A DNA stretch of 64,000 bases, from assembly GCF_900110435.1 (NCBI RefSeq), contig NZ_FODT01000009.1:62001-126000 (forward strand). Reading direction: 5' to 3'. The notes beneath the pieces were generated by a model, which saw only the letters and a list, made by a program, of their open reading frames with translations, made no database searches and was not told the origin of the DNA. This document shows, piece after piece, positions 43,555 to 62,101 of this stretch (within the stretch, counting starts at the first letter, position 1; each line of letters starts with the position of its first letter). The translations under genes and the position numbers were made by a program. Source of the stretch: Rhodopseudomonas pseudopalustris (GTDB lineage: Bacteria > Pseudomonadota > Alphaproteobacteria > Rhizobiales > Xanthobacteraceae).

Positions 43555-43588
43555 AGTCGGTCCTTCCGCTTGAGCCGCTCAATCCCGC

Positions 43589-43655: not shown

Positions 43656-43720
43656 ACGTATAACGACTGATATCATCCCGAACATCGCGCGGGCGGTGGC
43701 GAGATGCAGCCAAGCCCGCC

Positions 43721-44980: not shown

Positions 44981-45432
44981 TGACGGCGGCGATCCTCTCC
45001 ATCGATGAGCAGATCGCCACGATGAAGGCGGCCTGGCCGCAGTTCACGGCGCGCCGGATCGATCGCCGCGCGCAGTCCGCGCGGTGGGCGGGGAGCGTGA
45101 GGCCGCAATTTGCAAGCTACTCGCTGGAGATCCGCTATGAGCTCGGGTCGTTCCCCAAGGTGCGAGTGCTTTCACCCGAACTGGTTCGGTTGCCCGGCAA
45201 TTCCGAGGGCCAGCTGCCCCACGTTTACCCACCGGCCGACGATCCGACCCTTTGTTTGTTCGACCCCAGCGAAAGGGAATGGACAGCGGCCATGACCATC
45301 GCGAGCACGACCGTCCCATGGGCGCTCGACTGGCTCGCTTGCTACGAACTTTGGTTGATGACCGGGCGCTGGACCGGCGGCGGACGCCACGCCGGCCAGT
45401 TGGTCAACCATGCAAGGGAGACAACAGGATGA
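44980..45432 (+). CDS. CBASS E2-like conjugation protein (short type II)
   Basis: 150 residues. The stretch LPHVYPPADDPTLCLFDPS places a likely catalytic cysteine at C92 after H81, as in stand-alone E2-like CBASS proteins; WALDWLACYELWLMTGRWTGGGRH is the conserved C-terminal part. In type II CBASS the E1-E2 protein conjugates or primes the CD-NTase. Here only the E2-like part exists, with no E1/ThiF domain and no JAB protease, so it is the short form. Start shares one base with the CD-NTase stop; its own stop overlaps the next start. Confidence 0.85.
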   Translation: MTAAILSIDEQIATMKAAWPQFTARRIDRRAQSARWAGSVRPQFASYSLEIRYELGSFPKVRVLSPELVRLPGNSEGQLPHVYPPADDPTLCLFDPSEREWTAAMTIASTTVPWALDWLACYELWLMTGRWTGGGRHAGQLVNHARETTG

Positions 45433-46463
45433 ACTATGTCCCGCCGCGGCGATCGGACGGCACCATCCAACACGCACGCTTAAAGCAGCCATGGCCGCGG
45501 GGCCGCCCGTTCCGCATCCTGTCGATCGACGGCGGCGGAATTCGTGGCGTCTTTCCGGCGGCAGTCCTGGCGGAACTAGAAAGCCGCTTCCTGGGCGGCG
45601 CATCCATCGCAAATCACTTCGACATGATCGCGGGCACGTCAACGGGCGGCATCATCGCGCTCGCCCTTGCCCATGGGATGACGGCTCGACAGGCATTGAA
45701 CATCTATCTTGAGCGCGGCGATCGCATCTTTCCGCCGGCGGCTGGCCTCGGCAAGGTGTCGAGAGCGCTGCGCTGGGTGTTCAAACCGAAGCACGACCAG
45801 ACCGCCCTCAAGGACGAGTTACTGCGGATCTTTGGTGGCAAAGTGCTCGATGATGCCATTACCCGGCTGGTGATCCCGAGCTTCGAAGGTCGCCACGGCG
45901 AGCCATTCCTCTACAAGACGCCGCACCACCCGGACTACCAGAAGGATCGCCACAAGAAGTTTGCCCATGTGGCGCTCCACACGACGGCAGCCCCGTCCTA
46001 TTACCCTGGCGTTGAGGACGACGGTTACATCATGATTGATGGCGGCATCTGGGCAAACAATCCGGTCATGAACGCCCTGGTAGACGCCCTGGCCTGCTTC
46101 GACATCGCGCGTGAGGACGTACGTATCCTGAGCCTGGGAACGGGTGAGTCCACCTTCACTGTCGATGAGCGGGCGCGCAACGGTGGGATCAAGGATTGGG
46201 CGTTCCTGCGCTCTTTCAATGCGGCGGCACGCGCACAGTCCCGAAATGCCCTCGGCCAGGCCTATCTGCTGATCGGCAAAAACAACGTCACACGTATCGA
46301 CGTGCCGGAAAGCGATGCGCCAATCGCAATGGACGACGTGCAACGCTCAATTCGGGAACTGCCGATGGTAGCGCGCAGTCTTGTTGAAGGCGCCGGGCAC
46401 CATATCGAGCGGGTATTTCTGGACGGCGAGGTCGAGCAGTATATCCGGTGTCCGATAACGTAG
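45429..46463 (+). CDS. capV: CapV-type patatin phospholipase effector
   Basis: 344 residues. Oxyanion motif DGGGIRG (34-40), nucleophile S71 in GTSTGG, and catalytic aspartate in IMIDGGIWANNPVMNAL. When activated by the nucleotide made by the neighbouring CD-NTase, such proteins degrade membrane phospholipids and kill the infected cell. ATGA overlap with the E2-like gene. It is the last plus-strand gene, and ends facing the opposite-strand Cys-rich gene. Confidence 0.93.
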   Translation: MNYVPPRRSDGTIQHARLKQPWPRGRPFRILSIDGGGIRGVFPAAVLAELESRFLGGASIANHFDMIAGTSTGGIIALALAHGMTARQALNIYLERGDRIFPPAAGLGKVSRALRWVFKPKHDQTALKDELLRIFGGKVLDDAITRLVIPSFEGRHGEPFLYKTPHHPDYQKDRHKKFAHVALHTTAAPSYYPGVEDDGYIMIDGGIWANNPVMNALVDALACFDIAREDVRILSLGTGESTFTVDERARNGGIKDWAFLRSFNAAARAQSRNALGQAYLLIGKNNVTRIDVPESDAPIAMDDVQRSIRELPMVARSLVEGAGHHIERVFLDGEVEQYIRCPIT

Positions 46464-46484: not shown

Positions 46485-46931
46485 CTACCGGGCCGTGAGC
46501 AAACGACAGGCGAGCTCGCGCTCGCCCCAACGGGTCGAAAAAGTGTCGGAGACCTCAAACCAGGAACCGTCGTTGCCGATGCCATGGTTGGCGCCCATGC
46601 AGGAGCACTGGCATTCGTGCCCCTGTGCCTCCTGGCACGAGCGCGCGCAGATTTCTTGTTCGCGATAAGGCTGGATGATGTAGACCTTGCCGTACCGCTG
46701 CAGCGCCCGATCGACGAAGTCGTTGAACCAGGCTTTCGGCAGCTCCCAATAAGCGTGATTGCCGCCGATCCAATCCGGTGCTGTTCGCCGGCCGTCCTGC
46801 AACCATTGCCGGTTGTCATCGGCAAACGGCAGTCGCACTCGAAGCTTCTCACGAGGCCCAGTCCGGCGCAGGATGACTGGCGTGGTCTTCTGCTTCCAGA
46901 CGTAGTTGAGGGTGAGCCTCGCCATGGACAC
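46485..46931 (-). CDS. Small Cys-rich protein, unknown function
   Basis: 148 residues; not recognised. A central cluster EICARSCQEAQGHECQCSCM has five cysteines, with GANHGIG after it, suggesting a metal-binding site. The N-terminal third is basic and beta-like. An ATG two codons in (46925) is also possible. It lies 36 bp after gajB on the same strand and could be the last gene of the eight-gene defence operon, or an accessory of the GajAB pair. It converges on capV with a 21-bp gap. Confidence 0.7.
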   Translation of the reverse strand: MSMARLTLNYVWKQKTTPVILRRTGPREKLRVRLPFADDNRQWLQDGRRTAPDWIGGNHAYWELPKAWFNDFVDRALQRYGKVYIIQPYREQEICARSCQEAQGHECQCSCMGANHGIGNDGSWFEVSDTFSTRWGERELACRLLTAR

Positions 46932-46967
46932 CTTCTTCAGATTATCGGCCGCTTGGACGTGAAGAGC

Positions 46968-48677
46968 CTAGTCGACCAAAGGCCTCGCATTTTGAGGTCG
47001 AACAATCGTCACCAGTGTCCGCGCCCGCGTCAAACCCACTCGCAATAACCGGCGGCTGCGCTCAAATGGGGGTTGCTCAGTCCTTTCGTCAAAGAACCCC
47101 GACTTGAAGGCACCTTCAACAAGCACCACGCCATCGAACTCTTTGCCTTTGGCCTTGTGCATATTCATCAGAATGCAGCCGAACTGTGAATCGCGCTCGG
47201 CAGCGATGAGCCGCTCCTGTTCAAGGATGCGCTTCACGAGGTCACTCGCACCCCGGTAACTGCCTGATGCAAGCCAGCGTTCACTAAGGCCCGATGCCAG
47301 GGCATCCGTCGCCCTGAAGAGGCGGACAAGCCGCACTTCGCGGAATAATTCGCTGAGCGCAGGGATGTCCTGAAGCAGGCGACGCGCCACCTTCCAGTCC
47401 GCCACCGGCTCGCCGATCAACGCGACACCGGCTGCATGAGCGGCGACCAATGCCTTCGCGGCTTTGATCCGCGGTTCCTCACCCTTCGCCACCTTGGCCG
47501 CAGCCTCGTCATATTTGCGAGCGTTCTCGGCTGCCGTGTTGGTTTGCTCTTCCGCGTTCTTCAGCTTGTAGAAGCCGGCGATCGCCAGAAGCGTCCGCGC
47601 CAAGCTCTCCGCGGCCAACCCCGTCGGCCACTCCAGGATCGATGCGACCACGATTGCCGCCGCAGCCGATAGCTCCGCATCCCACACTACATCATGCTCA
47701 ATGACGGAGAGCAGCTGGTTGTTGTAGGTGTGAGGCTCGGAAAGGATAACCGAAAGGTCAGAGATCAGCGAGTTGCTCCGCGACAGCACCGCGACACTCG
47801 GCTTCTCGACACCTTTTCTTCGCAACGCACTGAAAGTCCAGATTACCGCCGTATGAACCGTCGCGGAGAAAGCGTTCCCCCAATAGCTCACCTGTTTGAC
47901 GTCAGGTGTCACCGGCAGCGGACCTTGATTACGCAACACCGCATCGGCAAAATGGAGGATGCCGGCGTTCGGACTCCTGTGGTTTTCGCCACCGAGATCG
48001 AATTCGGCGATCGCGACAGCCTCGCGCAGAATGTCCAGCCGGCGAGGATCGATGTCGTCCCGATAATCGAAGATCCGCTGCTCCGGATCCGCCAGACAGA
48101 ATACGTCGGTCACTTGGGCGAGCGCCCGCACGATCCGCCACTGATTATCGTCGGTGTCCTGGAACTCATCGACGATAATCATTGGGAACCGATCAGCGAC
48201 TAGCCCGCGTAGCGCCGCGCAGCCTTCGAGCAGATCGGCCGTGCCCGCCGCAAATAGGTCAAAGCAATAAAGCCCCATTTCTGCTGCCTGACGCTTGCGC
48301 TCGACACTCCAGTCCCCGTCGAACGCGGACTTCTGAAGCCGTTCCTCGCCAGGGTAAAGAAAACGCACCGACCGCCCATGCAACAGCCGCCCATGTGCTT
48401 CCAGCATCTCCATGCAGAAAGCGTGGTAGGTCTGGACCACGACGGCCCGGCGCTGGCTCGGCGTCAGGATTTCTTTGCAGCGTAGGAGGACCTGACGGAT
48501 CGCCGCGCGAGAGAAGCTCAGGAACAGAACTTCCTGACCGGGCTTGAGCGTCGCGAAGCGGCCTTGTGCCTTGAAAAGCGCGATCGTCGTCTTGCCTGAG
48601 CCCGGTCCACCGAGCACCAGCAGGTGCCCGGTCTGCGCGATGATCGCCTTTCGCTTGTCGCACAGCTCCAGTTTCAT
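46968..48677 (-). CDS. gajB: UvrD-like SF1 helicase, GajB-like
   Basis: 569 residues. Walker A in VLGGPGSGKTT (about 22-31), Walker B MIIVDEFQDTDDNQ, a motif III region VTDVFCLADPEQRIFDY, and motif V/VI LMNMHKAKGKEFDGVVLVEG and LRVGLTRARTLVTIV. It resembles UvrD/Rep helicases that pair with class 2 OLD nucleases, as GajB does with GajA in Gabija. It overlaps gajA by 4 bp. It is somewhat longer than the Gabija proteins I know (about 500 residues). Confidence 0.87.
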   Translation of the reverse strand: MKLELCDKRKAIIAQTGHLLVLGGPGSGKTTIALFKAQGRFATLKPGQEVLFLSFSRAAIRQVLLRCKEILTPSQRRAVVVQTYHAFCMEMLEAHGRLLHGRSVRFLYPGEERLQKSAFDGDWSVERKRQAAEMGLYCFDLFAAGTADLLEGCAALRGLVADRFPMIIVDEFQDTDDNQWRIVRALAQVTDVFCLADPEQRIFDYRDDIDPRRLDILREAVAIAEFDLGGENHRSPNAGILHFADAVLRNQGPLPVTPDVKQVSYWGNAFSATVHTAVIWTFSALRRKGVEKPSVAVLSRSNSLISDLSVILSEPHTYNNQLLSVIEHDVVWDAELSAAAAIVVASILEWPTGLAAESLARTLLAIAGFYKLKNAEEQTNTAAENARKYDEAAAKVAKGEEPRIKAAKALVAAHAAGVALIGEPVADWKVARRLLQDIPALSELFREVRLVRLFRATDALASGLSERWLASGSYRGASDLVKRILEQERLIAAERDSQFGCILMNMHKAKGKEFDGVVLVEGAFKSGFFDERTEQPPFERSRRLLRVGLTRARTLVTIVRPQNARPLVD

Positions 48678-50521
48678 CCCGGCAAGTCCTCGAAATCGCC
48701 GGGCACAGGTGCGGCAATCTCTTCGGGCATGGCGCTGAGGGTCTTATGAATCGCCTCCAGGATCTCGCGGATCGTCGCGGGCAGTTCCGCCGCGGTCTGG
48801 CACTGCGCGATCAGCATCGCCGCATAGCCATAAGCCTCGCCCTTGCGAGCCTTAAGCACTTTGGTCGCCAACGCCGCTGCGTCGGCATCGCCGGCCGCCG
48901 GATCATAGGCCCCGACAGCGGGATAATCGGACCGATCTTTCACCTCGTTGAGAAAGCGCCGCACGACCGCGATCGGCATCTGCTTGACAAGGACGTTCTC
49001 GATTCCCTTCTCGGGTGACTCCCAGACCTGAGTGTAGCTCTTCAGCTTTTCGAGGGAATCTTGACCAAACGCGGCGTTCGGCTTGTCGTAAAAGCCGAAG
49101 GCGAGCTTGCCTAGAGCCGAGAAAATCGGGCCATGACGCGGCACTGCATTGTCCGCGCCGGCGTCGAAGACGCTGACGCCGGCAAGATCGAAATGCATGT
49201 AAGAGTCCGCCGGCAGCGAATCTTCCATGATCGAAGATGCGACCGGAAACAGCGACGCCTCGGTCGAGCCCTCAACCACCAGCACCGCCCGGCTCAGGAT
49301 CGCTTCGGCGAACTGGCGCCGTTCCGTCCGGTAGGTCTTTGGCTTAACCGCCTGAGCGTCGATTGGCTTGCCTGTCAGCGCCCCACCTTCGTCGCGGTTA
49401 AGGATGACGATCTGCGATGCATCGAATTGCTCAATCACATAGGGCGAATGCGACGTAACGATAGATTGCCCCATCTCGGCCAGCACGAAGCGTGTGACGC
49501 GGCGCTGCGTATGCGGTGGCAGCGCAATCTCCGGCTCCTCCATCGCGAAGATCACAGACTGCTTGTCCTTCAACTCAGCGATGAAGGTCAGCAGCGCAAA
49601 GACCAACAGATTGATCGAGCCAGTGCCAAGCCGGCCGAACGGCACGAGATGCTGCCCCGGCTGTGCTGCGATGAAAAGGCGCACGACCTCGCGCAGATGC
49701 TCGCGCGTCAGGTCCGACGCGAAGAACGCTGTCGAGTTATCGCCTGGCGCAAGATTGACGAAGCGACCCATGCGCGAACGCACTTCGGCACGAATCTGCT
49801 TCAATTGCTCGATCTCACCAATCGCGGGGTCGAGCGCTTGCAGCCGGCCCAGAGTGTCCTGCCACATCTCAACTGCGCCAGACCCGCCGAGCTTCAGGAC
49901 CGAATCGAGTAACGACCCCCGCTGAAGGCTCAGCGCTCGGGACCCCGTCCGGAGGGTCCGCAAAAACACAAAGCCGCAAAGCCGCTTGTGAACGCGCGTG
50001 AAAGGTACGCGTCCCTGGCCGAGCTTTATCTCGGTCTCCTCGTCGAGTGCATCCAGCTCCTTGGTCGGATGGTCGAAGAAGGTATTCCCGACGAAATCAT
50101 CCTCGTCCCGGTCGTAGCGGCCGACGAACAGCAAAGGCAGGGCCCAGACCACGCCAGGCGCGTCGGCTTGGTCGAGCCCATTTTCCCGCTCGTCGATGAA
50201 AGTGCCGGCCTGATCGTCCCACCGCCGCAGATGCCCGCCGAACCGACGCGTTGCCTCTTCGGAGAGATCGACAAGAATAGCCTCAATGCGTATTTCGACG
50301 GGCGCTCCATCCTCAGTTAAATATCGTCCGCAGTGAAAATCATGCTCGTCAACGACCGGCCTGCGAAAGAGGCGTTCCGGCCCCAATACGAGGTCGAGGG
50401 CTTCGCATACTGTCGATTTGCCGACGTTGTTGCCGCCGACAAGAAGCGTATGGCCGGAAAAATCGATGCATCCTTGGGAGACGCCCCTAAAATTCGTGAT
50501 CTTGAGGCGTCGTACCCGCAT
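48674..50521 (-). CDS. gajA: OLD-family ATPase-TOPRIM nuclease, GajA-like
   Basis: 615 residues. Residues 1-40 read LKITNFRGVSQGCI and LLVGGNNVGKSTVCEAL (Walker A). FAMEEPEIALPPHTQR is the ABC-type Walker B and D-loop, followed by SIVTSHSPYVIEQF. The C-terminal TOPRIM domain begins SRAVLVVEGSTEASLFP. This is the class 2 OLD architecture found in GajA, which nicks DNA when nucleotide levels fall. It starts 26 bp after the res gene, so the pair may not be transcribed on its own. Confidence 0.88.
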   Translation of the reverse strand: MRVRRLKITNFRGVSQGCIDFSGHTLLVGGNNVGKSTVCEALDLVLGPERLFRRPVVDEHDFHCGRYLTEDGAPVEIRIEAILVDLSEEATRRFGGHLRRWDDQAGTFIDERENGLDQADAPGVVWALPLLFVGRYDRDEDDFVGNTFFDHPTKELDALDEETEIKLGQGRVPFTRVHKRLCGFVFLRTLRTGSRALSLQRGSLLDSVLKLGGSGAVEMWQDTLGRLQALDPAIGEIEQLKQIRAEVRSRMGRFVNLAPGDNSTAFFASDLTREHLREVVRLFIAAQPGQHLVPFGRLGTGSINLLVFALLTFIAELKDKQSVIFAMEEPEIALPPHTQRRVTRFVLAEMGQSIVTSHSPYVIEQFDASQIVILNRDEGGALTGKPIDAQAVKPKTYRTERRQFAEAILSRAVLVVEGSTEASLFPVASSIMEDSLPADSYMHFDLAGVSVFDAGADNAVPRHGPIFSALGKLAFGFYDKPNAAFGQDSLEKLKSYTQVWESPEKGIENVLVKQMPIAVVRRFLNEVKDRSDYPAVGAYDPAAGDADAAALATKVLKARKGEAYGYAAMLIAQCQTAAELPATIREILEAIHKTLSAMPEEIAAPVPGDFEDLPG

Positions 50522-50547
50522 AGCTGCTCCCTCAACTCATACCGGCG

Positions 50548-53500
50548 TCAGGCCGTCGCGCGACCCACGATATCCATGAGCTTCTCGTAACTCGTCACCA
50601 CGTCATACTTGACCCGTTCCTCGGACACTCGCTGACTGATCTCGTCGAAGAATTTCCGGGCGCAAGCGATCTTGGTGTTCTCGATCTCGCGGAGCTTCAT
50701 CGAGGACATGGTGCCCTTGGTCTCGGCGACGAAGTAGATGTGTTTGACGCTTCCCTCCTTGAAGGAGATCGCCCAATCGGGGTTGTAATCGCCAACCGGC
50801 GTCGGGATCAGGAAACCGCGCGGCAGCTTGGCGTAGACAACCACCTCGCTCGCTGTATCCAGCTCGTCGGCAAACTTTCGTTCGATCTCGGAGTCGGTGA
50901 CCACGTAATCGTACACGTGCCGCTTCAGCTTCGCCGACGCCTTCGAGAAGTCCTGGCCGGTCTGGTTCGCGGTGAAGATGTCGACGTCGTAGCGTTCGGC
51001 CAACCCGTCATAGGCCAACCGCTCGATTACCATTGTGGCCTTTTGCTCAGCGATGATCCGCGACGCTTCGGCGATGAAGTGCTCGGGGTTCTCCTTGAAC
51101 TGCCCGAACACGCTGGCCTGTATGCCGGTCAGGATTTCCGCTGCAGTCTTGCGCGTGAGCTCCGTGTTTTCGGCGATCTTCCCGAGGAGGTCGTACTTCA
51201 CGAGCGAATGGACAGATCCGCCGCGTTCGGTCGTTGAGCCTGTCAGGGCAAAACCATCACCCGCCTTCAGCTGCTCGTCCGTTAACCCGTCGCCCTGTAT
51301 GCCGGTCTGAACCGTGTACTGGAGCGGCGTCACGCGAAGCTGGCTATCGAGAGCGCTCACGCATTTTCGGACCAATTCATCGGAGTCGAACTCGACCCGA
51401 TAAACTGCCTTTTGGTTGATGCGCCGCCAGAGCTCCTGGAATTCCTTTTTCTCAAAATTCTCATTGAGCGGATTGGTCTTCGGCTTGCGGCCGTCCTCGA
51501 CCTTCGGGAGCTGCGCATCGCTGAACACGCTGTCGATGATCTGGAAAATCTGATCGGCATGCGCCTTCAGCTCATCCGGCAAGGCCGCCAGGGTTCCGGC
51601 CTCCTTCGCCTGGTGGTAGGCGCTGGTGATCTGGTCTGCGTCGTCGGAATAATCGTTCTTCACGAGGTAGCGGTAAATCTGCTTCGCCATGGCCGGCGTG
51701 ATCTCGATCGGGCCAGCATCCGTCGTGATGGTCTTCCCGGTGAAATAGGCCTCCGTCGCCTTGCGCGGGCGCGACGTCAGCGTGTCGGCGATCTCCTTCT
51801 GGAGGCCGGCCACGAAGTTCTTGTAACTCTCGCTGGCGACGACCGTGAGGACGTTGATGTCATGGACGACCGCGGGGTTGTCCATCCGGTCGCCGTTCTG
51901 GTCGACCGACAGGCGAAGGCCGCGGCCCACTTCCTGGCGCCGTGAGACGGTGTTGTCGCTGTGCTTGAGCATGCACATGACGAAGACGTTGGGATTGTCC
52001 CACCCTTCGCGCAGTGCGGAATGCGAGAAGATGAACCGCGTGGGTTCCGCGAAAGACAGCAGCCGTTCCTTGTCTTTCAGGATCAGGTCGTAGGCGTCCA
52101 CGTCATCTGAATCGACCGACCGTGCGCCGACGGCGGGGTCCTTGAGCCGGTTGGTCTTCTTGTCGATCGAGAAATAGCCGTTGTGAGTCTTGGCCGCATC
52201 GATGCCCGCCAGGTGCTTCCGATAGGCGTCGTTATCAATCGCCAGCTCAGCCAGATATTCCGCCTTGAGAAGCTCGTACTCCTCCTCGAACACGCGGGCA
52301 TATTCGCCCTTCTCATCCGGCTGTGCGTAATCGCGGTACTTCACGACCTCGTCGATGAAGAACAGCGACAGCACCTTGATGCCCTGGGCGAAGAGCTGCT
52401 TCTCCTTGTCGAGATGCGCCTTGATCGTCTCGCGGATTTGGATGCGCCGGATGTCGCGCTCGGACACATCACCGGTGGCCTCCCCAGCCTGGAGCACCAG
52501 GCCGTTGGTAAATTCGACCGTGTCGTTGCGCGCGTCGATCTGAGAGATCGTGAAGCCGTCGCGGTATTGATCTAACTCGCCGGACTCGGCGAACAGGTCG
52601 TCACGGAACTCCAGCCGCTTGAGCTGGCGCTTGATCTCGCCGCTCGCGAGCTTCACCTCGATCTCGAGCCGCGCCACCGGCGCCTTCTTCGAGATTTCAA
52701 TGCCCTCGAGGTAGAGGTAGGCGTTCGTGCCGGCGAGCCCGCGCGTCTGGATGCCTCGCACCGCGATCTTTTTCACCAGCTTCTGGTTGTAGGCGTCGAG
52801 CGCATCGAGCCGGTGAACACGGTTGTGTTGCGTCTTGTGGGTCGCCGAGTAGCGCAGGATCATGAGCGGCTTGAACTTGGGCAGCGCCTCCATCGTGGCC
52901 GCGCCTTCCATCTTCTGCGGCTCATCGAGGATCAGGATCGGCCGATTGCTGGCGATCACGTCGATGGGCTTGCGCGACTGGAAGTCGTCCAGCTCCTCAT
53001 AGATGCGACGGTTGTCGGCGCCGCGCGCCGCGAACGCCTGGATGTTGATGACCATCACATTGATGCCAGCGTCCGACGAGAAGCTTTCGAGCTCGTGCAG
53101 GCGCTTGGAATTGTAGATGAAGAAACGCGCCTTCTTGCCGTAGCTCTCGGTAAAATGGTCGGCGGTGATCTGCAGCGATTTGTGGACGCCTTCCCGGATG
53201 GCGATCGACGGCACCATGATGATGAACTTCGACCAGCCATAGCGCTTGTTCATCTCGAAGATCGTCTTGATGTAGCAATAGGTCTTGCCGGTCCCCGTCT
53301 CCATCTCGGTATCGAGGTTGATCCTGCACCCAGCGCTGGCAACCAGCTTATCCGATATTGGCAGATTCTGCCGGCGCTGAACGTCTTTGATGTTGGTAAG
53401 CACCTGAGGCTCGGTCAGTACTAGATCGGCGTTCTTGAACCCCTCCTCGAAGGCGCTCGTCTGCGCCTTTCGGCCTGGATCGATCCGATAAGTGATGCCG

Positions 53501-53586
53501 TTCGACATTGGTTGCCCGGCGAAGCAGTCCACGACCGAATTCACTGCCTCGGTCTGATAGGGCTGGACCTTGAATTTCAGTTTCAT
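50548..53586 (-). CDS. Type III-like restriction subunit Res (DEAD helicase-nuclease)
   Basis: 1,012 residues from [18 protein letters not shown]. Motor motifs: [20 protein letters not shown] (Walker A) and [13 protein letters not shown] (motif II), then [20 protein letters not shown] and the [11 protein letters not shown] helicase motif VI. The C-terminal endonuclease has PD-ExK elements in [10 protein letters not shown] and FVAETKG. It belongs to type III Res subunits, which cleave DNA after translocation. It begins 10 bp after mod. The start is chosen at 53586, since the upstream part is antisense-like filler. Confidence 0.92.
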
Positions 53587-53596
53587 GGCTGCCCCC

Positions 53597-55480
53597 TCAG
53601 ATCGACTTGACGTCGGTGGCGGGCGAGATCTGGCGGAAGACCTGCTCAACGTTGATCTTCACCGCGTCGGATACGAATCCATTATCGCGGAACACGACGC
53701 GCAGCGGCTCGCGGCCAGCGAGCTCCTTCACCAGCTCCTCTGTCACGCCGGTCTCGAAGCACGCGGCCAGTGCACTTCCGTCGACGAAGAACACGGTCTT
53801 GCCCTGTACCGTCTCGCGCTTGATCGGCAGCGTCAGGTCCACGCCCCAATCGACGAGCACCTGGAACAGCAAGTCTTCCGGGCTGCGGTCCGGCTTGATG
53901 TTGTCGACGGTGGCCAGCAGGTCCTTCTGATCGATTTGATCCGGGCGGTAGTAGACGTCCTGCATGTTCGAGGTGTCGACTTTCAGGACCCGGAAGCCGA
54001 CATCGCGGTTCCAGTCGGGGTGGCACTCACCTTCGAGCACCGCTTTCCCGGCTCGGCGCAATCGCTCCTTTGTTAGTTCAGCAATGTTGGCGGGCTTACC
54101 AATTCCGTGGCAGTAATCATACGCCGTTTTCTGCTCCCTGTTTCCCTTTTCCAGAGCTTCTGGAAGTTGGACAACAACAAACTTTCGATTGCCTCCATCT
54201 GCGGCGTTTTGGGCCATAACGGCGTGCGCTGTTGTTCCCGATCCCGCAAAGAAGTCGAGGATGGTATCGTTGTCTTTTGTCGCTTGCTCAACGATCTTTT
54301 TCATCAACGCTACTGGCTTGGGAAAGCTGAATACGCGCTCATTGAAGAGCGCCATCATGTCTGCTGTTCCGTCCCGGGTGTAGATTCCAGAACCAAGGAT
54401 AGTAGAAAAGCCAGTGAACTCGGACTCAAGCTCACTCAGAAAGGCCTTTCTTCTCGGCCGCCCTTCCGGGGAAGAAGGCCAGAGGATACGATCTTCTTGA
54501 ATGAGTCGCGCCATTGTATTTCTGTCATAGCGCCATCCCATAGTTGGGCACCCGTAATTTATGCCCGTAGCTGTATCAATGAGGTCATAGTGAAGATTGG
54601 GTCTTCTGTCTGCTGTAGCAATACCAACCATGTTTGCGCTGACCCAATCCCCCCTGGGATCATTGTCTGGATTGGTGTATTGCTCTATCTTTCTTTCTGA
54701 ACCGCGAATTGCGCGACCATAACAAAGTACATACTCATGATCGACAGATGCACCGGTTGTCGTTCTATTATCGATATTTTGCCGGCTCTTCCAAACGAAG
54801 TTGGCTATAAACTTGTCAGATCCGAAGATTTCATCGCAGATTTTTCTCGTGTTCTGAACTTCTCCATCGTCAATACTGATAAAAATAACTCCATCATCTG
54901 ATAGCAGATTTCGAGCCAGCTTGAGCCTCGGATACATCATGCTCAGCCAGTCAGAATGGAATCGTCCGTTCGAGGTGGGGTTGGCGACCAGAGAATTACC
55001 AGCCGAGTCTTTTTGGTTGGAAGATTCCAGGAACTCGGTGGTGGCAGAAGTGAAATTGTCGTTATAGACGAAGTCGTTTCCTGTGTTGTAAGGCGGGTCA
55101 ATATATATCATCTTAACTTGACCAAGGTAGGTCTCTTGAACAAGCCTGAGGGCGTCCAAATTATCGCCTTCGATGAAAACATTCTTCGTTTCTTGGAAAT
55201 CCGTGCTCTCGTCGATATGAGGCCGGAGTGACTTGGCAACAGGTGTATTCGCGAGCGCCAATGCCTCCCGCTTGCCTGGCCAATCGAGCCGATACCGCTC
55301 CTGCGGTCCCTCAACGATATGGTCGCTCAGCTCCTGACGCAACTGATCGAAGTCCACCGCAAGACGCAGCTGTCCCGTCGCCTCGTCGCGCGCCTCGGTC
55401 ACGCAGCCGGGAAACAGGTCGCAGATCTTCGCGATGTTCTCCTGGCTCAGGTCAGGGCTATGCATCTTCAGTTTGTCCAT
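53597..55480 (-). CDS. Type III-like DNA methyltransferase Mod
   Basis: About 627 residues from [19 protein letters not shown] (an in-frame ATG at 55498 is also possible). Catalytic motif [16 protein letters not shown] precedes the SAM motif [13 protein letters not shown], the beta-class order typical of N6-adenine type III Mod subunits. The target-recognition region lies between. The gene has a marked GC drop from about 54090 to 55200, while both ends match the GC-rich neighbours, so its central part appears to be imported. Its partner is res, 10 bp downstream. Confidence 0.92.
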
Positions 55481-55490
55481 CGTCTTTCCC

Positions 55491-56198
55491 TTACTCATTC
55501 GATGCGGCACTCATGGGTTCTCCTCCGGAGAGGCGCTCCAGTTCCTGCCGTGCAGCGCGCAGTTCGGCGTTGATCGCCACGCGCTTGTTGAACTGCTTCT
55601 CGCGGGCCAGGCGACCCTTGATGCGGTCCACCTCCCGCGTCTTGGCCCGGATCGCCTCCATCCGCGCCACACGCGCCTGGATGTCCTCACCGGCTTGCTC
55701 CGCTTCGGCGGCGGACTTCGGCATCAGCGCCGTGATGAGGGAGTCGTAGAGACCGCCGAGATTGAGGGCGACCGGCAACGGCCGACGCGCCGTGTCGTCA
55801 GGCGCCCAATCGGTCGCGAAATAGCCGCTGACAACCCACTTCGTGGAATCGGCATCACTCGGCCGCTTGAAAGCGGCCACCGCCTTGCGCTTTCCGGACC
55901 ATGTGAGCTCGAAGATCAGCGGGAACGGGATCGCGCGGTCGATCGCGCGCAACACCTCTTCGTCGAGCTTGCTGGAGCGCATGCTGATGCCGAACACCTG
56001 AATCTCGCTGACGGCCTTCGTCGCCGCGAGGTTGGTCGTTTCCGGCGCCAGCTTGTACTTCCAGACGATCTGATCGACCTGGGTGACGAACAGATCCCGG
56101 AGCGCCGTGCTGGCACCAGCGTGCTCGTATATGCGGCTTTTGGGGACAACCCGGCCGAATGCTGCAGCCTTGGGATAATCGAAGAACGCTGCCGTCAT
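55491..56198 (-). CDS. DUF4391 domain protein
   Basis: 235 residues. It opens MTAAFFDYPKAAAFGRVVPKSRIYEHA; VDQIVWKYKLAPETTNLAAT and LIFELTWSGKRKAVAAFKR match the DUF4391 family as I recall it. A C-terminal coiled coil rich in Arg/Glu follows (about 160-225). The family has no proven activity; it often lies between an SNF2 helicase and a Mod/Res pair. It overlaps the helicase stop by 4 bp and ends 10 bp before mod. Confidence 0.83.
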   Translation of the reverse strand: MTAAFFDYPKAAAFGRVVPKSRIYEHAGASTALRDLFVTQVDQIVWKYKLAPETTNLAATKAVSEIQVFGISMRSSKLDEEVLRAIDRAIPFPLIFELTWSGKRKAVAAFKRPSDADSTKWVVSGYFATDWAPDDTARRPLPVALNLGGLYDSLITALMPKSAAEAEQAGEDIQARVARMEAIRAKTREVDRIKGRLAREKQFNKRVAINAELRAARQELERLSGGEPMSAASNE

Positions 56199-59100
56199 GT
56201 GGCCCCCTCCTCGATCACGAGGAAGGCGATCAGCTCGAAATCGTCGAGCCCGGCGATGGTGTGGACCAGCGCCGTGGTCCGCCCACCGCTGAACAGGCTG
56301 TCAATGTCCTTCTCTTCCTTGACCTCTATCATCGAGCGGATCGCCGCACTCAGAAGGGCGGAGCAATGCTCCATCTTCCGGCCGTCCTGCGTCCGCTCGT
56401 TGAACAGCTGGCAGACCGCCCGGATCGGCTCTGCCTGGCCCTTGCAGCTCGTGCGGATCAGATCGAGCAAGCGCTTCACCTCGGTATGGTCGATGATGAC
56501 CCCACCGTCGTGACCGACATAGACGAGGTAATAAGGGTGCAGTCGGTTCTGCTGGTTGATGTTCACGCTGTCATGGATGTTCTTCAGCGCGAAGATCACA
56601 CCGGGCTTCAGCCCGAGCGCCGGCTGTGCCGGCACAACCGCGTGCATGCCGTTGGGCAGATGCTCGAGATCGCCGTGCTCCTTGATGTGATTCAGAAGGT
56701 CCATACGGAAATCGTTGAGGCCGAGATCCGTGATGGAAATCACGGTCCGCACGTCCTCCAGCTCGATCACCTCTTCCTGGAGCCGCTTGAGCTGCTCCTT
56801 CCGGTAGGCGATGTCGCTGCTCTTGGCCGTCAGCACGTTGTCGTCGCCGGTCGCCGTGACGTCGGCGATCATCATGCGGTTTTCGACGCGCTCCTTGAGA
56901 TTGATGTACTCGTCCAGCGAGATTTCCGGCCAATAGTTGACGAGCTGGATTTGCGCATTGGGAGACCCGATACGGTCGATGCGGCCAAACCGCTGGATGA
57001 TCCGCACCGGGTTCCAGTGAATGTCGTAGTTGATCAGATAGTCGCAATCCTGGAGGTTCTGGCCCTCGGAGATGCAATCCGTTCCGATAAGGATGTCGAT
57101 CTCGCCGGTTTCGTGCGGCAGGACCAGATGCTTCTCCTTTGCGCGCGGCGAGAACAGGGTCAGCAGGGACTGGAAGTCATAGCTTTTCTTTAGCGTGCTC
57201 TTCGGCGCGTCGGAGCCGGTGACCATGCCGCAGTGCAGGCTGTGCGACTGAAGAAAGGCCGGCGCCAAATTGGCGTAGAGGTACTTCGCCGTGTCTGCGA
57301 AGGCGGTGAAGATCAGAACCTTGCGGTTGCCGGGGTTGAGCGGGTCAGCGACCTTGCGGGTGATGACGTCCTTCAGATGCTGCAGCTTGGCATCATCCTC
57401 CGGAACCACCTTGTCCATCGAGGCGATCAGGTCACCGATCAGCGTGAGATCCGCGGCGAGGTCGTGCTTCCACGATGGAAGGTCCATGTCCGACAGACTG
57501 ATCTGAATCTTTTTGCCGACCGTGAACTCATCCAGTCCGCTCAGATCGTCGTCGTCGGGATCAAAACCCGGATCGCCAAGATGGTCTGTCACACTCGCGG
57601 CGGCGCCCGTGCGCTCAAAGGTGTCGATCGCCTTTAGCGTCTGCGCGATGTTGCCGCTCAGCGCCCGCAGGGTGAGCCGGAAGGCTTCGACCGAACTCTC
57701 CAACCGCTTGAGCAGGTTGGTAGTCATCAGAGCCTGAAGGCTCCGCTCACGGTCAGCCTGGCGCAGCTTGCCGCGACCACCCTCCACCTGGGTGTCGTAG
57801 ATTTCTTCGTACTTCCGAAGCCGGCTCGGCAGGATGTAGCTGATCGGCGCGTAGACAGCGAGCTTGAGCACCGACAGGCTGCCGAAGATGTCGTTGAGGC
57901 CGAGCACATCGGAGCGATGGGTGATCGGGCATTGGTACGACAGCGGCTTTCGGCGCTGGGGGAATTTTCCGATATCCTTGGTGTCGTAGAAAGTCTCGAT
58001 ATGCTTGCGCGACCGGGCGATCGTCACGGCATCGAGCATCTCGAAGAAATCGAAGTCCAGGGCCTTCAGGATTGCGGCTGCGGTTCGCTCGTGCGGCGGC
58101 AGATCCGACCAGGCATTGAACGCCTTTTGGGCGCGCCGGAAAATCTCTTCGATCCCGGTCTTGGTTTTCAGCTTGCGGCTGAGGTTTTCTGAATCCCCTT
58201 CATAGGCCAGCGCGAGCTGATTGCGCAGGTCGTTGAACCGGTTGTTCACCGGCGTCGCCGACAGCATCAGAACCTTGGTCTTCACGCCGGAGCGGATGAC
58301 CTTGTTCATCAGCTTTTGGTAGCGCGTCTCCCGATCCTTGAAGACATCGTTGTTTCGGAAATTGTGCGACTCATCGATGACGACGAGATCGTAATTGCCC
58401 CAGTTCACGCGGTTCAGCGGAATTCCGAATGCCTCGCCGGATGTGCGGGAGAGATCGGTATGGCTCAGAACGTCGTAGTTGAAGCGGTCCTTGGCGAAGA
58501 TGTTCGTGGTCAGATTGGTGTTGTAGTTGCGCCAATTGTCCGCAAGCTTCTTCGGGCACAGGACGAGCACCGACCGATTGCGCAGTTCGTAATATTTGAT
58601 GACCGCGAGCGCGGTGAAGGTTTTCCCGAGGCCGACGCTGTCCGCCAGAATGCACCCGTTGTGCATCTCCAGCTTGTTGATGATACCAGTGGCAGCATCC
58701 CTCTGGTAGTTGAACAGCTTGTTCCAAACGAGGCTGTCCTTGTAGCCGGTCAGATCGTTTGGCAGCGCATCCTGATCAATCTCTTCGAGGAAATCCTGGA
58801 AGAGGTTGTAGAGGATGTGAAAGTAGATCCGTTCAGGTGAATTTTCCTGGTAGACGGACTCGATGTGGTCGCAGATGGCGGCGGTGACGTCGCTGACCTT
58901 GTCCTCATCGTTCCAGATCTGATTGAACAGTTGCAGATAGACCTGTGTGTGCGCCGCATCGTCGATGCGCGTAACGAGATTCGAGACGGCGTCGCCCTTC
59001 TGATAGCCCAGGTCAACGGCCGTGAACCCGCTAATCGGCATGTAGGCGACGTCGCGGGCTTCCGATCCTGCGTGAATGAACTGCTGCATCGGTGCCTTAG

Positions 59101-59467
59101 TCTTGTTCGACTTGAAGCGAGCCTTCTTTCGTATCCATTCGGCGCACTCGCGCGCGACTGCGCGCTGCGTGAGCTTGTTGCGAAGCTGAATCTCGAACTC
59201 GGTGCCGTAGAGCCCCCGCTCTCGCGTCGTCTTTGGGATGAAGAACTCTCGCCGCTCCTTGCGGAGGCGGTCAGTCACATCCGTCGCGACGAAGGTTGGG
59301 GCTGTGAAAATGAACTGCAGGCTCTCGACCTTCGAAAACTCCGCCTTCAGGGCCTCGAACGCATAGATCGAGAAGCAGGACGCTGCGATTTTGATCCGAG
59401 CGCCACGCCCCAACGTCGCCTTCAGGTCATCGCCGAGAAGCAGTGAGGTGTTGTCGATTATCTTCAT
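56195..59467 (-). CDS. PLD-SNF2 helicase of a restriction-like system
   Basis: 1,090 residues from MKIIDNTSLLLGDDLKATLG. The first 200 or so residues look like a phospholipase-D-type nuclease/recognition fold. The SNF2 motor follows: ILADSVGLGKTFTALAVIKYY (Walker A), LVVIDESHNFRNND (DESH motif II), KTKVLMLSATPVNNRFNDL, then IGTDCISEGQNLQDCDYLINY and RIIQRFGRIDRIGS (motifs V and VI). It probably translocates on DNA as part of a defence complex. The start at 59467 is 10 bp after the ATPase gene stop; the longer frame overlaps that gene and is rejected. Confidence 0.9.
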   Translation of the reverse strand: MKIIDNTSLLLGDDLKATLGRGARIKIAASCFSIYAFEALKAEFSKVESLQFIFTAPTFVATDVTDRLRKERREFFIPKTTRERGLYGTEFEIQLRNKLTQRAVARECAEWIRKKARFKSNKTKAPMQQFIHAGSEARDVAYMPISGFTAVDLGYQKGDAVSNLVTRIDDAAHTQVYLQLFNQIWNDEDKVSDVTAAICDHIESVYQENSPERIYFHILYNLFQDFLEEIDQDALPNDLTGYKDSLVWNKLFNYQRDAATGIINKLEMHNGCILADSVGLGKTFTALAVIKYYELRNRSVLVLCPKKLADNWRNYNTNLTTNIFAKDRFNYDVLSHTDLSRTSGEAFGIPLNRVNWGNYDLVVIDESHNFRNNDVFKDRETRYQKLMNKVIRSGVKTKVLMLSATPVNNRFNDLRNQLALAYEGDSENLSRKLKTKTGIEEIFRRAQKAFNAWSDLPPHERTAAAILKALDFDFFEMLDAVTIARSRKHIETFYDTKDIGKFPQRRKPLSYQCPITHRSDVLGLNDIFGSLSVLKLAVYAPISYILPSRLRKYEEIYDTQVEGGRGKLRQADRERSLQALMTTNLLKRLESSVEAFRLTLRALSGNIAQTLKAIDTFERTGAAASVTDHLGDPGFDPDDDDLSGLDEFTVGKKIQISLSDMDLPSWKHDLAADLTLIGDLIASMDKVVPEDDAKLQHLKDVITRKVADPLNPGNRKVLIFTAFADTAKYLYANLAPAFLQSHSLHCGMVTGSDAPKSTLKKSYDFQSLLTLFSPRAKEKHLVLPHETGEIDILIGTDCISEGQNLQDCDYLINYDIHWNPVRIIQRFGRIDRIGSPNAQIQLVNYWPEISLDEYINLKERVENRMMIADVTATGDDNVLTAKSSDIAYRKEQLKRLQEEVIELEDVRTVISITDLGLNDFRMDLLNHIKEHGDLEHLPNGMHAVVPAQPALGLKPGVIFALKNIHDSVNINQQNRLHPYYLVYVGHDGGVIIDHTEVKRLLDLIRTSCKGQAEPIRAVCQLFNERTQDGRKMEHCSALLSAAIRSMIEVKEEKDIDSLFSGGRTTALVHTIAGLDDFELIAFLVIEEGAT

Positions 59468-59477
59468 CGGCTTTTCC

Positions 59478-60698
59478 TCACGCCCACAGACACGATAGAG
59501 GCGCGGCCGCCAGGCTGTCTCCGAACGGCACGACATCCGTGCTGTCGTAGAGGACGACGCCAAACGCGAAGCGGTCCCCACAAGCCTCGGCCAATGCGCG
59601 CAGGCCCGAAAAGTCGCTGGCCTTGACCGTTGCGCTCGCCTTCACCTCGATGGCGGCAATCATGCCGTCATCGCGCTCGAGCACGATGTCGACCTCGCGC
59701 ATGTCCCGATCGCGGAAATGATGTGGCGTCAGACGCAGGTCTGAGGCCGTCATCAGCTTCAGCACTTCGGAGAACACGAAGCTCTCGAGCAGCGCGCCAA
59801 ATGCCCCCCGATCCGCCTTGATCCGATCGAAAGTCAGCCCGCGCGCGGCAGCCAGCATGCCGGAATCAAGGAAATGCAGCTTGGGCGTCTTAACGATGCG
59901 CTTGAGCGCATTGGTGAACCATGGCTGCAGGGTCGCGATCAGGAACACCTGTTCGAGCAGACCGACATAGCGCTGACCGGTCCTGTGGTTGACGTTGATG
60001 CCGCTCGCAAGCTGGGAATAGTTGACGAGCTGCCCGGAATGTTCGGCGAGAAGACGCACGAACTTGGGGAGTTCGGTGAGCTTCTCAACTTCAGCGATAT
60101 CGCGCAGATCACGGGTCAGGATCGAGGTGAGATACGCACGCGCCCAGTCTTGTCGCCGGCGTTCGCTGTCGCGGCTAATCGCCTCAGGAAAGCCGCCGCG
60201 CAACGCAAGCTGGACCAACTCGTCGCCGACAATGGCGGCGCTTTGACTCTCCAAATTCCCCTCGAACAGGCGTTCCAGAAAGGTCGGTGCTCGGCTTTCG
60301 ATTTCCGCCCGAGCCAAGGGCAGCATCCGAATGGTTTCCATCCGGCCAGCGAGGCTGTCAGCGACGCGCGGCAAGGTCAGCACATTGGCCGAGCCGGTCA
60401 GCAGGAAACGGCCCGGGCGATAATCTTCGTCGACCGTCTTCTTGATCGCCAGCAACAGATTGGGCGCGCGCTGGATCTCGTCGATGATGGCGCGATCCAG
60501 ACCTCGGATGAACCCGGCCGGGTCGGACTGGGCGGCCTCAAGGACGGTCTGGTCGTCGAGTGTGCTGTAGGTCCAGCCGGTTTCTCCCATCTTTCGCACC
60601 AGCGTCGTCTTGCCGGCCCGGCGCGGTCCGACGATGAGGACGACCGGCGTGTCTGCAAGCGCCTCCTCCGCCCTCCGCTCAACGAATCGCTGGAACAT
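59478..60698 (-). CDS. AAA_14/DUF4143 ATPase
   Basis: 406 residues. Walker A in VVLIVGPRRAGKTTLVRKM, Walker B in AIIDEIQRAPNLLLAIKK, sensor region RFLLTGSANVLTLPRVAD, and a C-terminal DUF4143 region with HFLDSGMLAAARGL and VDIVLERDDGMIAAIEVKAS (a nuclease-like fold). Such ATPases are common as stand-alone genes of unknown role. Here it leads the eight-gene minus-strand run, 10 bp before the SNF2 helicase, so it may be part of the defence module or an unrelated passenger. Confidence 0.88.
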   Translation of the reverse strand: MFQRFVERRAEEALADTPVVLIVGPRRAGKTTLVRKMGETGWTYSTLDDQTVLEAAQSDPAGFIRGLDRAIIDEIQRAPNLLLAIKKTVDEDYRPGRFLLTGSANVLTLPRVADSLAGRMETIRMLPLARAEIESRAPTFLERLFEGNLESQSAAIVGDELVQLALRGGFPEAISRDSERRRQDWARAYLTSILTRDLRDIAEVEKLTELPKFVRLLAEHSGQLVNYSQLASGINVNHRTGQRYVGLLEQVFLIATLQPWFTNALKRIVKTPKLHFLDSGMLAAARGLTFDRIKADRGAFGALLESFVFSEVLKLMTASDLRLTPHHFRDRDMREVDIVLERDDGMIAAIEVKASATVKASDFSGLRALAEACGDRFAFGVVLYDSTDVVPFGDSLAAAPLSCLWA

Positions 60699-60901
60699 GA
60701 CATCTCCGACTACCGGCTGATTGGCATCATCAGCCTCGGCAGATTTGTAGTCAATGGTCCGCTGATTGGTATCGTGTGCATTCCCAGGATCTGAGGGGAA
60801 AGCCTTCCCCTGCGGCTGAACTTTGTCTCTGCCGACCCTTGTTTAGCGGGGAGCCCCCGCAACGCCCCCCGAGAGTGAGAGTGCAGGCCGGGTGTGCCGT
60901 A

Positions 60902-60956
60902 ACGGGTTGAAGGCTGGGAGAGAGGCTTCCGGCGCCCGTCGCGGAGACCCGTGATG
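60902..60956 (+). repeat. Leader repeat, copy 1 (before ardC)
   Basis: About 55 bp, roughly 85 percent identical to 62046-62101 and ending at the start codon in both cases. Conserved parts are GGGAGAGAGGCT, GCCCGTCGCGGAGACC and the ATG. The GGAG of GCGGAGACC serves as a ribosome-binding site. Confidence 0.8.
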
Positions 60957-61922
60957 TCGAAACGTGATCCAAGCGGCCGGCCGAGCGCTGACCGGACGAG
61001 CCTGTATGACGAAATCACCGGCAAGATCCTGGCCGAACTGGAGGCCGGACGGTTGCCCTGGGTCCAGCCCTGGGGGACGGCCGCGGCCAAGGCGCCACTC
61101 GCCATGCCGAACAACGCTGCGACCGGGCGCGGCTACTCAGGCGTCAATGTGCTGATCCTCTGGGGCGCGGTGATCTCGCTTGGCTTCCCGAGCCAAGGCT
61201 GGCTGACCTTCCGCCAGGCCCTGTCGCTCGGCGGCAATGTCCGGAAGGGCGAGCGCGGCACCACCGTCGTCTATGCCGACCGCTTCGTGCCGGACGATGA
61301 ACGCCGTCGTGCGCGAGAGACCGGTGAGGAGGCACAGGCGATACCGTTCCTGAAGCGCTTCACTGTCTTCAACGTCGCTCAGTGTGACGGCCTGCCTGAG
61401 GACCTCGTGGCCGCCGTGCCGGCGCCCGAACCCGGGCTGATCGAGCCCACGGTCGACGCGCTGATCCGGGCGAGCGGGATCGACTTTCGCATCGGCGGCG
61501 ACCGGGCTTACTACGCGCCGGCACCTGACTATGTGATGGTGCCGCCGCCCCAGGCATTCTTCGAGCCCATCAACTGGCATCGCACGGCGCTGCATGAATG
61601 CGCCCATGCCAGCGGCGCGGTCCATCGGCTGGGACGCGATCTCACAGGATCGTTCGGCTCCAAGAAATACGCGTTCGAGGAACTGGTGGCCGAAATCGCC
61701 TCGGCCTTCTGCTGCGCCGCCCTCGGCATCGCCCCGACCGTCCGCCACGCCGACTACATCGGATCCTGGGCCGAGGTCCTGCGCGAGGACAATCGCGCCA
61801 TCGTCCGTGCAGCCAGTCAGGCAAGCAAGGCAGCGGACTGGTTGCTGGCCTTCGCCCCAAATGCGGGCGAACCTGGTCAGGCAATTGCCACCACCCCCGA
61901 GGCCGCACGCCAGGCGGCCTGA
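60954..61922 (+). CDS. ArdC-like antirestriction protein
   Basis: 322 residues from the ATG behind the leader. N-terminal ssDNA-binding ArdC domain (SLYDEITGKILAELEAGRLPWVQPW), then a zincin-like metallopeptidase domain with H214-E215-C-A-H218 in TALHECAHASGAVHR. ArdC-type proteins protect incoming single-stranded DNA from restriction during conjugation and are typical of plasmids and ICEs. It is divergent from the defence operon and is followed by the ParB-like gene. Confidence 0.92.
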   Translation: MSKRDPSGRPSADRTSLYDEITGKILAELEAGRLPWVQPWGTAAAKAPLAMPNNAATGRGYSGVNVLILWGAVISLGFPSQGWLTFRQALSLGGNVRKGERGTTVVYADRFVPDDERRRARETGEEAQAIPFLKRFTVFNVAQCDGLPEDLVAAVPAPEPGLIEPTVDALIRASGIDFRIGGDRAYYAPAPDYVMVPPPQAFFEPINWHRTALHECAHASGAVHRLGRDLTGSFGSKKYAFEELVAEIASAFCCAALGIAPTVRHADYIGSWAEVLREDNRAIVRAASQASKAADWLLAFAPNAGEPGQAIATTPEAARQAA

Positions 61923-61980
61923 CCGACTCGTTATCGTTCCAAGCATCGGCGCAGTCCCGTCTTTCCGGCTCTACGGCGTT

Positions 61981-62008
61981 CCGGCTTTCCGGCTTTCCGG
62001 CTTTCCGG
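61981..62008. repeat. Short tandem repeat, CCGGCTTT x 3.5
   Basis: Three and a half head-to-tail copies of the 8-bp unit CCGGCTTT lie between the ardC stop and the parB leader. Looser copies (TTTCCGGCT, GCGTTCCGG) precede it from about 61961. Confidence 0.85.
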
Positions 62009-62045
62009 AGGCAATGAGAGGAAGAGGGCTGCGCCGATTTTCGTG

Positions 62046-62101
62046 ACGGGTTGGAGGTCGGGAGAGAGGCTCCCGGCCGCCCGTCGCGGAGACCTGTCAT
62101 G
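62046..62101 (+). repeat. Leader repeat, copy 2 (before the ParB-like gene)
   Basis: Second copy of the leader also found at 60902-60956, again ending exactly at a start codon. It probably provides both the promoter-proximal control and the ribosome-binding site (GGAG). Confidence 0.8.

Follow-up and report, generated by a model that had tools for sequence, protein, structure and literature searches.

Type III restriction-modification (R-M) is usually treated as a two-gene enzyme. Two sources describe methylation of one DNA strand and cutting at a distance of about 25 bp from unmodified sites in inverted orientation (PMC12707154, PMC10059834). Gabija is likewise a pair of adjacent genes, which encode GajA, an OLD ABC ATPase with a TOPRIM domain, and the UvrD-like helicase GajB; its known properties are nucleotide-sensing nicking of DNA and activity against phages. 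Both kinds of system are found in one run of genes in Rhodopseudomonas pseudopalustris (assembly GCF_900110435.1, contig NZ_FODT01000009.1). The window analysed here, 64,000 nt covering positions 62,001-126,000 of the forward strand of that contig, contains at 46485-60698 eight consecutive minus-strand open reading frames (ORFs), which encode, from 5' to 3', a DUF4143 ATPase, an SNF2 helicase, a DUF4391 protein, Mod, Res, GajA, GajB and a Cys-rich protein (CYS). A sequence-only reading had proposed that the whole run might be one defence system. In our analysis it is likely a mosaic of separately moving defence modules, with a four-gene type III R-M variant (SNF2-DUF4391-Mod-Res, the core) at its centre and with swappable cargo that includes Gabija, which probably has its own activity. 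The eight genes are not one system because homology splits at gene edges, and CYS, gajAB, the core and DUF4143 each occur apart from the others.

The suspicion that a five-gene unit surrounds Mod and Res proved correct insofar as the unit exceeds the two genes of type III R-M; it comprises four genes, not five. Among 398 genomes of the phylum, 23 have DUF4391, 22 have the SNF2 helicase and 42 have Res. DUF4391 is also present in 20 of the 22 SNF2 genomes; in the other two (G071 and G353; G and L numbers denote our genomes and loci) a more distantly related SNF2 gene has an Eco57I-like or Type-ISP-like methyltransferase as its neighbour, with no Mod/Res match. In all three DUF4391 genomes that gave no SNF2 match (G018, G022, G257), the DUF4391 gene lies at a contig edge. 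Since Res is present in 22 of the 23 DUF4391 genomes and DUF4391 is absent from 20 of the 42 Res genomes, Mod/Res occurs without the SNF2-DUF4391 pair, while the pair rarely occurs without Mod/Res. In a second sample, drawn from the class, 11 of 385 genomes had DUF4391, nine of them above the cut-off; the two weaker matches lie beside Mod and Res (G463, locus L154) and beside nothing (G643, locus L153).

In the window mod and res are adjacent, yet SNF2 and DUF4391 stand before them, with the gene order unchanged, in 32 of 33 complete loci, the exception being L120 with the order mod-res-SNF2-DUF4391. This sample is not random: it consists of DUF4391 genomes of the phylum and class, GajA loci, and 11 plasmids picked from 102 SNF2-matching records, and it includes close relatives (L059/L063, L050/L144, L053/L161 and L146/L164). 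The core is widespread, with carriers among proteobacteria and Gram-positives, a Mycolicibacterium, a Bacteroidete and an archaeal plasmid; outside the 33 loci, its order was found again on plasmids of the archaeon Methanomethylovorans (L173), Enterococcus (L174) and Vibrio (L175). In Listeria (L145) an unnamed protein occupies the place of DUF4391. The core also stands alone on plasmids; homology with a Sphingobium plasmid (L143) covers 50564-59467 in five pieces, broken by transposons and, in blastn, missing the middle of mod.

The junctions within the core differ in how often they are interrupted. Counting gaps of more than 250 bp between neighbouring core genes, the SNF2/DUF4391 junction is open in none of the 33 complete loci (largest gap 64 bp), the DUF4391/mod junction in 9 of 32, and the mod/res junction in 10 of 33, and what is inserted is often another defence gene. 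Seven of the nine DUF4391/mod gaps hold a named family: a Zeta-toxin-like kinase (L036), GmrSD (L045), DUF2130 (L047), PDC-S46 (L057), Abi_C (L148), OLD with DUF2130 (L160) and a UvrD-like protein (L162); nothing was named in L038 and L048. Between mod and res, 7 of the 10 gaps hold a named family: Fic (L036, L038, L148), RhuM (L038, L048; RhuM is present in L037 and L039 as well), Schlafen/AlbA (L051, L161) and AAA_21 with DUF4276 (L162). Of the other three, L143 has transposons, and the unnamed cases are L053, with a doubtful reverse ORF, and L054, with a 307 bp gap and no gene named. A third position lies behind res. There, an ORF of at least 100 aa on the same strand begins within 150 bp in 17 of 35 testable loci (three further loci end too near res, and the length limit of the script missed L151 and L165). 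The contents of this position include GajAB, KwaAB, Mrr, GmrSD, DUF4268/PDC-S11, DRT3a-DRT3b, PDC-S06, PDC-S46 and a 2420 aa SIR2 protein; four of the 17 loci have short ORFs or a transposase (L039, L047, L048, L143) and one an unnamed gene (L038). Most insertions in the core operon run in its direction and leave only short gaps. The neighbours of the window on the SNF2 tree bear other cargo, SIR2 in L151 and Schlafen plus Mrr in L051.

Some of this cargo deserves a separate record. The SIR2 protein directly behind res (L151:1-7260) is cut at the locus edge, and its N-terminal SIR2 domain resembles that of SIR2-Argonaute partners. One core (L148:1084-11914) has all three slots filled, with Abi_C, an unnamed protein plus Fic, and DRT3a-DRT3b. 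The unnamed protein belongs to a family without a Pfam match that stands directly before Fic in the mod/res slot (L036:9336-10460, L038:5738-6943, L148:7900-8934) and is distinct from RhuM. The candidate family PDC-S46 (more than 850 bits) is found before mod in L057:10005-12197 and behind res in L149:11592-13841.

Gabija is one cargo among these. A single scan of genome contigs, from which the best 80 of 288 GajA relatives were taken, placed the core beside GajA in three loci (L063, Novosphingobium; L079, Mariprofundus; L120, Sediminicola). The other 77 show no Mod/Res core. Since the upstream sequence reaches 3 kb or more in 67 of the 80 loci, 64 of these 77 included, 3 of 67 is the fairer figure. 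Conversely, GajAB is borne by only 5 of the 33 complete cores (L035, L040, L059, L063 and L120, L059 being the window). GajAB thus occurs mostly elsewhere without Mod/Res, the first of the outcomes that the sequence-only reading had itself named, together with a transcription start just before gajA, as pointing to two neighbouring systems. Among the 398 phylum genomes, a GajA relative (E 1e-30) was found in eight. In two it lies directly behind res: one is the genome of the window, present by choice, and the other is G108, whose locus is identical with L079. G285 has a weak relative 7.5 kb off on the core's contig, G185 has the core on another contig, and four lack DUF4391. In Caulobacter (L064), Devosia (L067) and Pleomorphomonas (L068), homology with the window begins at 46966-46970 and ends at 50520-50521, that is, it extends from the gajB stop to the gajA start, with no core match in any of them.

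On the GajA tree (80 rows, the window and 79 loci; L091 was omitted for partial coverage, and the row of L136 is long and badly translated) the state 'with core' switches three times. The GajA of L035 belongs to a second subfamily (22% identity, 803 bits with the GajA model) and therefore represents a fourth joining. This brings the independent unions of GajAB with the core to at least four, and in three of these the pair lies directly behind res. Consistently, GajAB-bearing cores occupy four places on the SNF2 tree, a quick tree with long branches flagged, among cores with other cargo. The gajB of the Novosphingobium relative (L063:11845-12737) has a 254 bp deletion and has lost its end beyond window position 47539, while gajA and the core look whole, which would be consistent with Gabija being dispensable to the core. 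As a separate observation, two pairs of contigs from different phyla (L072/L075 and L065/L066), which are metagenome-assembled genomes or uncultured bins, have identical or nearly identical GajA, reflecting either recent transfer or binning error.

That all eight genes form one undescribed system is hardly credible on these data. The tight spacing on a single strand speaks for it, as does Novosphingobium (L063/L172), which keeps seven of the genes in this order. Yet CYS, GajAB, the core and DUF4143 have each been found separately, the homology stopping where a gene ends, and L063 gives no CYS match and has a shortened gajB. The single-system proposal was rejected on these distributions and edges.

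A different possibility is that GajAB is coupled to the R-M core as a fail-safe that responds when the type III complex is attacked or fails; its recurrent place behind res would then reflect function and not co-expression alone. Such arrangements have precedents, as PrrC guards a type I enzyme and PARIS senses Ocr. GajAB takes the same slot in three separate lineages (window/L063, L040, which is L079, and L035) and from two GajA subfamilies. Backup effectors including OLD-ABC/TOPRIM (Gabija-type) modules have been proposed for bacteriophage exclusion (BREX) loci (PMC12839542), and toxins have been noted within type I and III R-M operons (PMC3506569). Against this, the same slots hold unrelated systems (Kiwa, DRT3, GmrSD, Mrr, SIR2), and as 77 of the 80 GajA relatives show no core, Gabija does not need it. 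We therefore consider a fail-safe unlikely.

Several observations weigh against the mosaic reading. GajAB lies directly behind res, on the same strand and at 8-35 bp, in three separate lineages, so chance stacking alone is a poor account of the adjacency and the two may be functionally linked. The window and Novosphingobium have GajAB, the same core and DUF4143 in common, although gajB is shortened in the latter. The SNF2/DUF4391 junction is itself broken in 1 of 37 loci once four incomplete loci are added, by a 535 bp insertion with a 23S_rRNA_IVP gene in L052. In L042 DUF4391 is present without Mod/Res, and in Desulforapulum (L176) only the first part of Res remains, whereas the matches to SNF2, DUF4391 and Mod are almost complete. 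Finally, the participation of SNF2-DUF4391 in restriction is an inference only. An alternative explanation is that SNF2-DUF4391 is an independent defence system merely adjoining type III R-M. It is favoured by the shortened Res of L176, by the 20 Res genomes without DUF4391 and by SNF2 relatives that stand beside Eco57I-like or ISP-like methyltransferases with no Mod/Res match (L156, L158), although we also count the last of these in favour of the mosaic reading. It is difficult to reconcile with Res in nearly every DUF4391 genome and with a gene order kept across phyla and on an archaeal plasmid, and we regard it as quite improbable.

All eight ORFs of the run were found where the sequence-only reading had placed them, with gaps or overlaps of 4 to 36 bp, and family searches with Pfam, PADLOC and NCBIfam named seven of the eight proteins (Table 1). 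The identities given earlier to Mod, Res, the OLD-TOPRIM nuclease, the UvrD helicase, DUF4391 and DUF4143 are borne out by strong family matches, whereas CYS matched no family in any of the three libraries. The longest-ORF starts of SNF2, Mod and Res probably lie too far upstream. For SNF2 the start at 59467 was preferred because DNA homology with the Sphingobium plasmid begins there, and for Mod (55480) and Res (53586) because the next in-frame Met falls at what appears to be the onset of conserved sequence. Under these starts the spacings along the run are 10, -4, 10, 10, 26, -4 and 36 bp, with 4 bp overlaps between the SNF2 and DUF4391 genes and between gajA and gajB, and 26 bp between res and gajA. 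Co-transcription of the core with gajAB is plausible from this spacing. Scanning for the sigma-70 consensus gave no site between res and gajA and two in the region (28 bp before the DUF4143 start and within mod) against 3.6 expected by chance; since the promoter and terminator scan did not exceed chance, it carries no weight either way.

Table 1. Genes of the run and of its two flanks, with positions in the window.
Feature	Position	Strand	Basis
DUF4143/AAA_14 ATPase, accessory at the run's 5' end	59478-60698	-	PADLOC PDC-S01, 564 bits
SNF2 helicase, core gene 1	56195-59467 (longest ORF from 59581)	-	PADLOC C3a139 'HKD+Snf2', 416 bits
DUF4391 protein, core gene 2	55491-56198	-	DUF4391, 201 bits
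Mod, core gene 3	53597-55480 (longest ORF from 55510)	-	PF01555; MTase_III, 753 bits
Res, core gene 4	50548-53586 (longest ORF from 53649)	-	PF04851 and PF19778; REase_III, 1136 bits
GajA, cargo: OLD ABC ATPase and TOPRIM	48674-50521	-	GajA model, 811 bits
GajB, cargo: UvrD-like helicase	46968-48677	-	GajB model, 693 bits
CYS, Cys-rich protein, 148 aa	46485-46931	-	no family match
CBASS-like cluster: ImmA/IrrE peptidase (-), CD-NTase/SMODS (+), 150 aa protein (+), patatin phospholipase (+)	42329-46463		
ArdC-like anti-restriction protein, divergent from the run, mobile-element backbone	60951-61922	+	

The two R-M proteins have the features expected of type III enzymes. Mod has the order of a beta-class N6-methyltransferase, DPPY before FxGxG (DPPYNTG at 138-144, then DFFAGSG with D419, F421, G423 and S424), and Res combines a superfamily 2 (SF2) motor with a C-terminal PD-(D/E)XK nuclease (P957, D958, E976, K978). 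Hallmark residues are kept in at least 97% of the aligned rows of Mod (n=34), Res (n=31), GajA (n=76) and GajB (n=71). The nearest solved structures by sequence are EcoP15I Mod and Res (Res, 4zcf) together with other type III Mods, and for the Gabija pair an OLD-family protein, several GajA entries and PtuA (GajA) and UvrD/PcrA/Rep (GajB). DNA of the window and its Novosphingobium relative is 86-90% identical over 48407-60302 outside 54014-55049, the middle of mod, where blastn found no similarity to that relative; about 75 N-terminal and 130 C-terminal residues of Mod are nearly identical, and the middle, with its catalytic and recognition parts, is dissimilar. Specificity change through recombination is known for type III mod genes, and judged from the sequence the exchanged middle would fit such a change. 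Transposons lie within mod in L146 and L161.

The description of the helicase as PLD-SNF2 holds for the fold and not for catalysis. Its N-terminal domain has the phospholipase D (PLD) fold, but in an alignment of 22 rows, the sole evidence on this point, no catalytic His or H-x-K is among the invariant or near-invariant columns. An active PLD nuclease was rejected, as the HKD motif is missing, and the domain is probably a DNA-binding or docking platform, not a nuclease. The protein missed every NCBIfam cut-off (151.3 bits with NF038317, DrmD-type SNF2, against a cut-off of 610), and DrmA and BrxHI/BrxHII were merely weaker helicase matches. DUF4391, which matched no PADLOC model, is predicted (mean confidence score pLDDT 89) to form an alpha/beta domain with a C-terminal helical hairpin, without clear resemblance to a known fold. 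The model had no PDB or viral structure match at E <=0.001, and 49 of 50 VIA rows were limited to the hairpin. No function could be read from the fold, and a missing match is not evidence of a new one.

By analogy with known type III enzymes, Mod would methylate one strand of a short asymmetric site and thereby mark the host, and the Mod-Res complex would sense unmodified sites through ATP hydrolysis and long-range sliding, with Res cutting. We infer that the tightly linked SNF2-DUF4391 pair works as an additional arm attached to the methyltransferase, with the SNF2 motor probably remodelling or blocking incoming DNA. The operon tolerates insertions in front of mod, in front of res and behind it; other defence genes collect at these places and may gain its expression. 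GajAB, a complete Gabija pair, is probably self-sufficient, as known Gabija enzymes suggest, and may back up restriction. A bolder version, which we offer tentatively as possible but less than probable, is that the core is a distinct system with two effector arms reading one methylation mark. One arm would be cleavage by Res, the other a PLD-SNF2 motor without nuclease activity that together with DUF4391 blocks or remodels DNA lacking the mark, and the operon would serve as a platform where mobile elements plug in Gabija, Kiwa, DRT3, GmrSD, Schlafen and SIR2 at three preferred slots. If a widespread branch of type III R-M needs or uses a second helicase pair, methylation-based discrimination of self and non-self would gain an extra arm, and DUF4391 a first role. 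The slot pattern, with one junction almost never broken and two often, indicates which genes to keep together experimentally. It also points to a general way in which an R-M operon that is already expressed may acquire whole immune systems. In the window, Gabija and type III R-M are separable parts, and over-reading them as one system is averted.

The outer genes of the run belong to other modules. CYS was considered as a member of Gabija or of R-M and rejected, since it groups with a cyclic oligonucleotide-based antiphage signalling system (CBASS)-like cluster in three of five plasmid homologues; the sequence-only reading, which counted it in the run, is to be revised here. The cluster ends 21 bp from CYS and faces the run. 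Blastn homology spans both in Mesorhizobium (L167, 42325-46907), Bosea (L169, 42365-46905) and Bradyrhizobium (L166, 44341-46905), and among 31 records with CYS homologues CYS faces a patatin/CBASS cluster in three of the five plasmid neighbourhoods examined (Bradyrhizobium, Mesorhizobium and Bosea, not Pelagibacterium or Methylocella). CYS may be an unrecognised CBASS companion. At the other end, DUF4143 has its own distribution, with 182 plasmid records, 109 of them from Rhizobium or Agrobacterium. It precedes the core in Novosphingobium too, where homology continues from DUF4143 onward to 60947, and in 7 of 15 annotated plasmid cores its position is taken by a WYL, HTH or transcription-factor gene.

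Beyond DUF4143 lies the ArdC-like gene, followed at 62017-63999 by a gene that we take to be ParB-like; the region 60951-63999 is a variable defence slot of a plasmid or an integrative and conjugative element. Both genes are matched in Caulobacter (L064) and the ParB-like one in Novosphingobium (L172), where a putative DUF932-like gene, with no family call, stands in ArdC's place. The modules would sit in a variable slot of a mobile-element backbone, with ArdC and the ParB-like gene on the right and CBASS on the left. This setting raises the alternative of plain defence-island stacking in mobile-element hotspots, each system having its own promoter and sharing neither expression nor function. 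The backbone with CBASS on its other side agrees with it, as do the differing distributions of DUF4391, GajA and CYS. So does L064, where the same ArdC/ParB side stands near GajAB with no core match and one gene between, presumably HipA-like. The mostly co-directional, tight insertions in the core operon would not be expected from random stacking, however, and we think this account doubtful.

Judged by titles, opening lines of abstracts and selected passages, no description of the four-gene set or of its slots was found in the open library searched, which leaves out most subscription papers. C3a139 is not mentioned there, and DUF4391 appears in one paper (PMC7784981), as an entry in a domain table with no function given. 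C3a139 and PDC-S01 are PADLOC candidates, single-protein models that match the SNF2 helicase and the DUF4143 ATPase, respectively. From DrmD of the defence island system associated with restriction-modification (DISARM), PLD-helicase antiphage proteins and SauUSI, the SNF2 protein differs in missing the NCBIfam cut-offs, in having no HKD motif and in its partners DUF4391, Mod and Res; DrmA, DrmB or DrmC was the best match of none of ten ORFs scanned (46485-63850; best 25 of 43 PADLOC matches). With the PLD-type restriction nucleases SauUSI, NgoAVII and BfiI it shares the PLD fold but not a conserved catalytic H-x-K(-D). BREX and BREX-related loci, as PMC12839542 presents them, resemble the locus in combining a methyltransferase with an SNF2-type helicase and in having drawn in further effectors, OLD/TOPRIM and Schlafen among them, either within the locus or close by. 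Here Mod/Res stand in place of BrxX, and PglZ, BrxC/DUF499 and a PglX-type methyltransferase are not among the listed matches of the run proteins. The Gabija pair has both genes, the order, the overlap and the hallmark residues of known GajA-GajB and is otherwise ordinary, differing in its place as operon cargo 26 bp behind res. The closest likeness of the core is to type III R-M of the EcoP15I/EcoP1I kind (Mod2Res), with which it shares the Mod and Res families, their motifs and the mod-res order, and from which it differs in the SNF2 and DUF4391 genes conserved upstream and in the other genes so often inserted.

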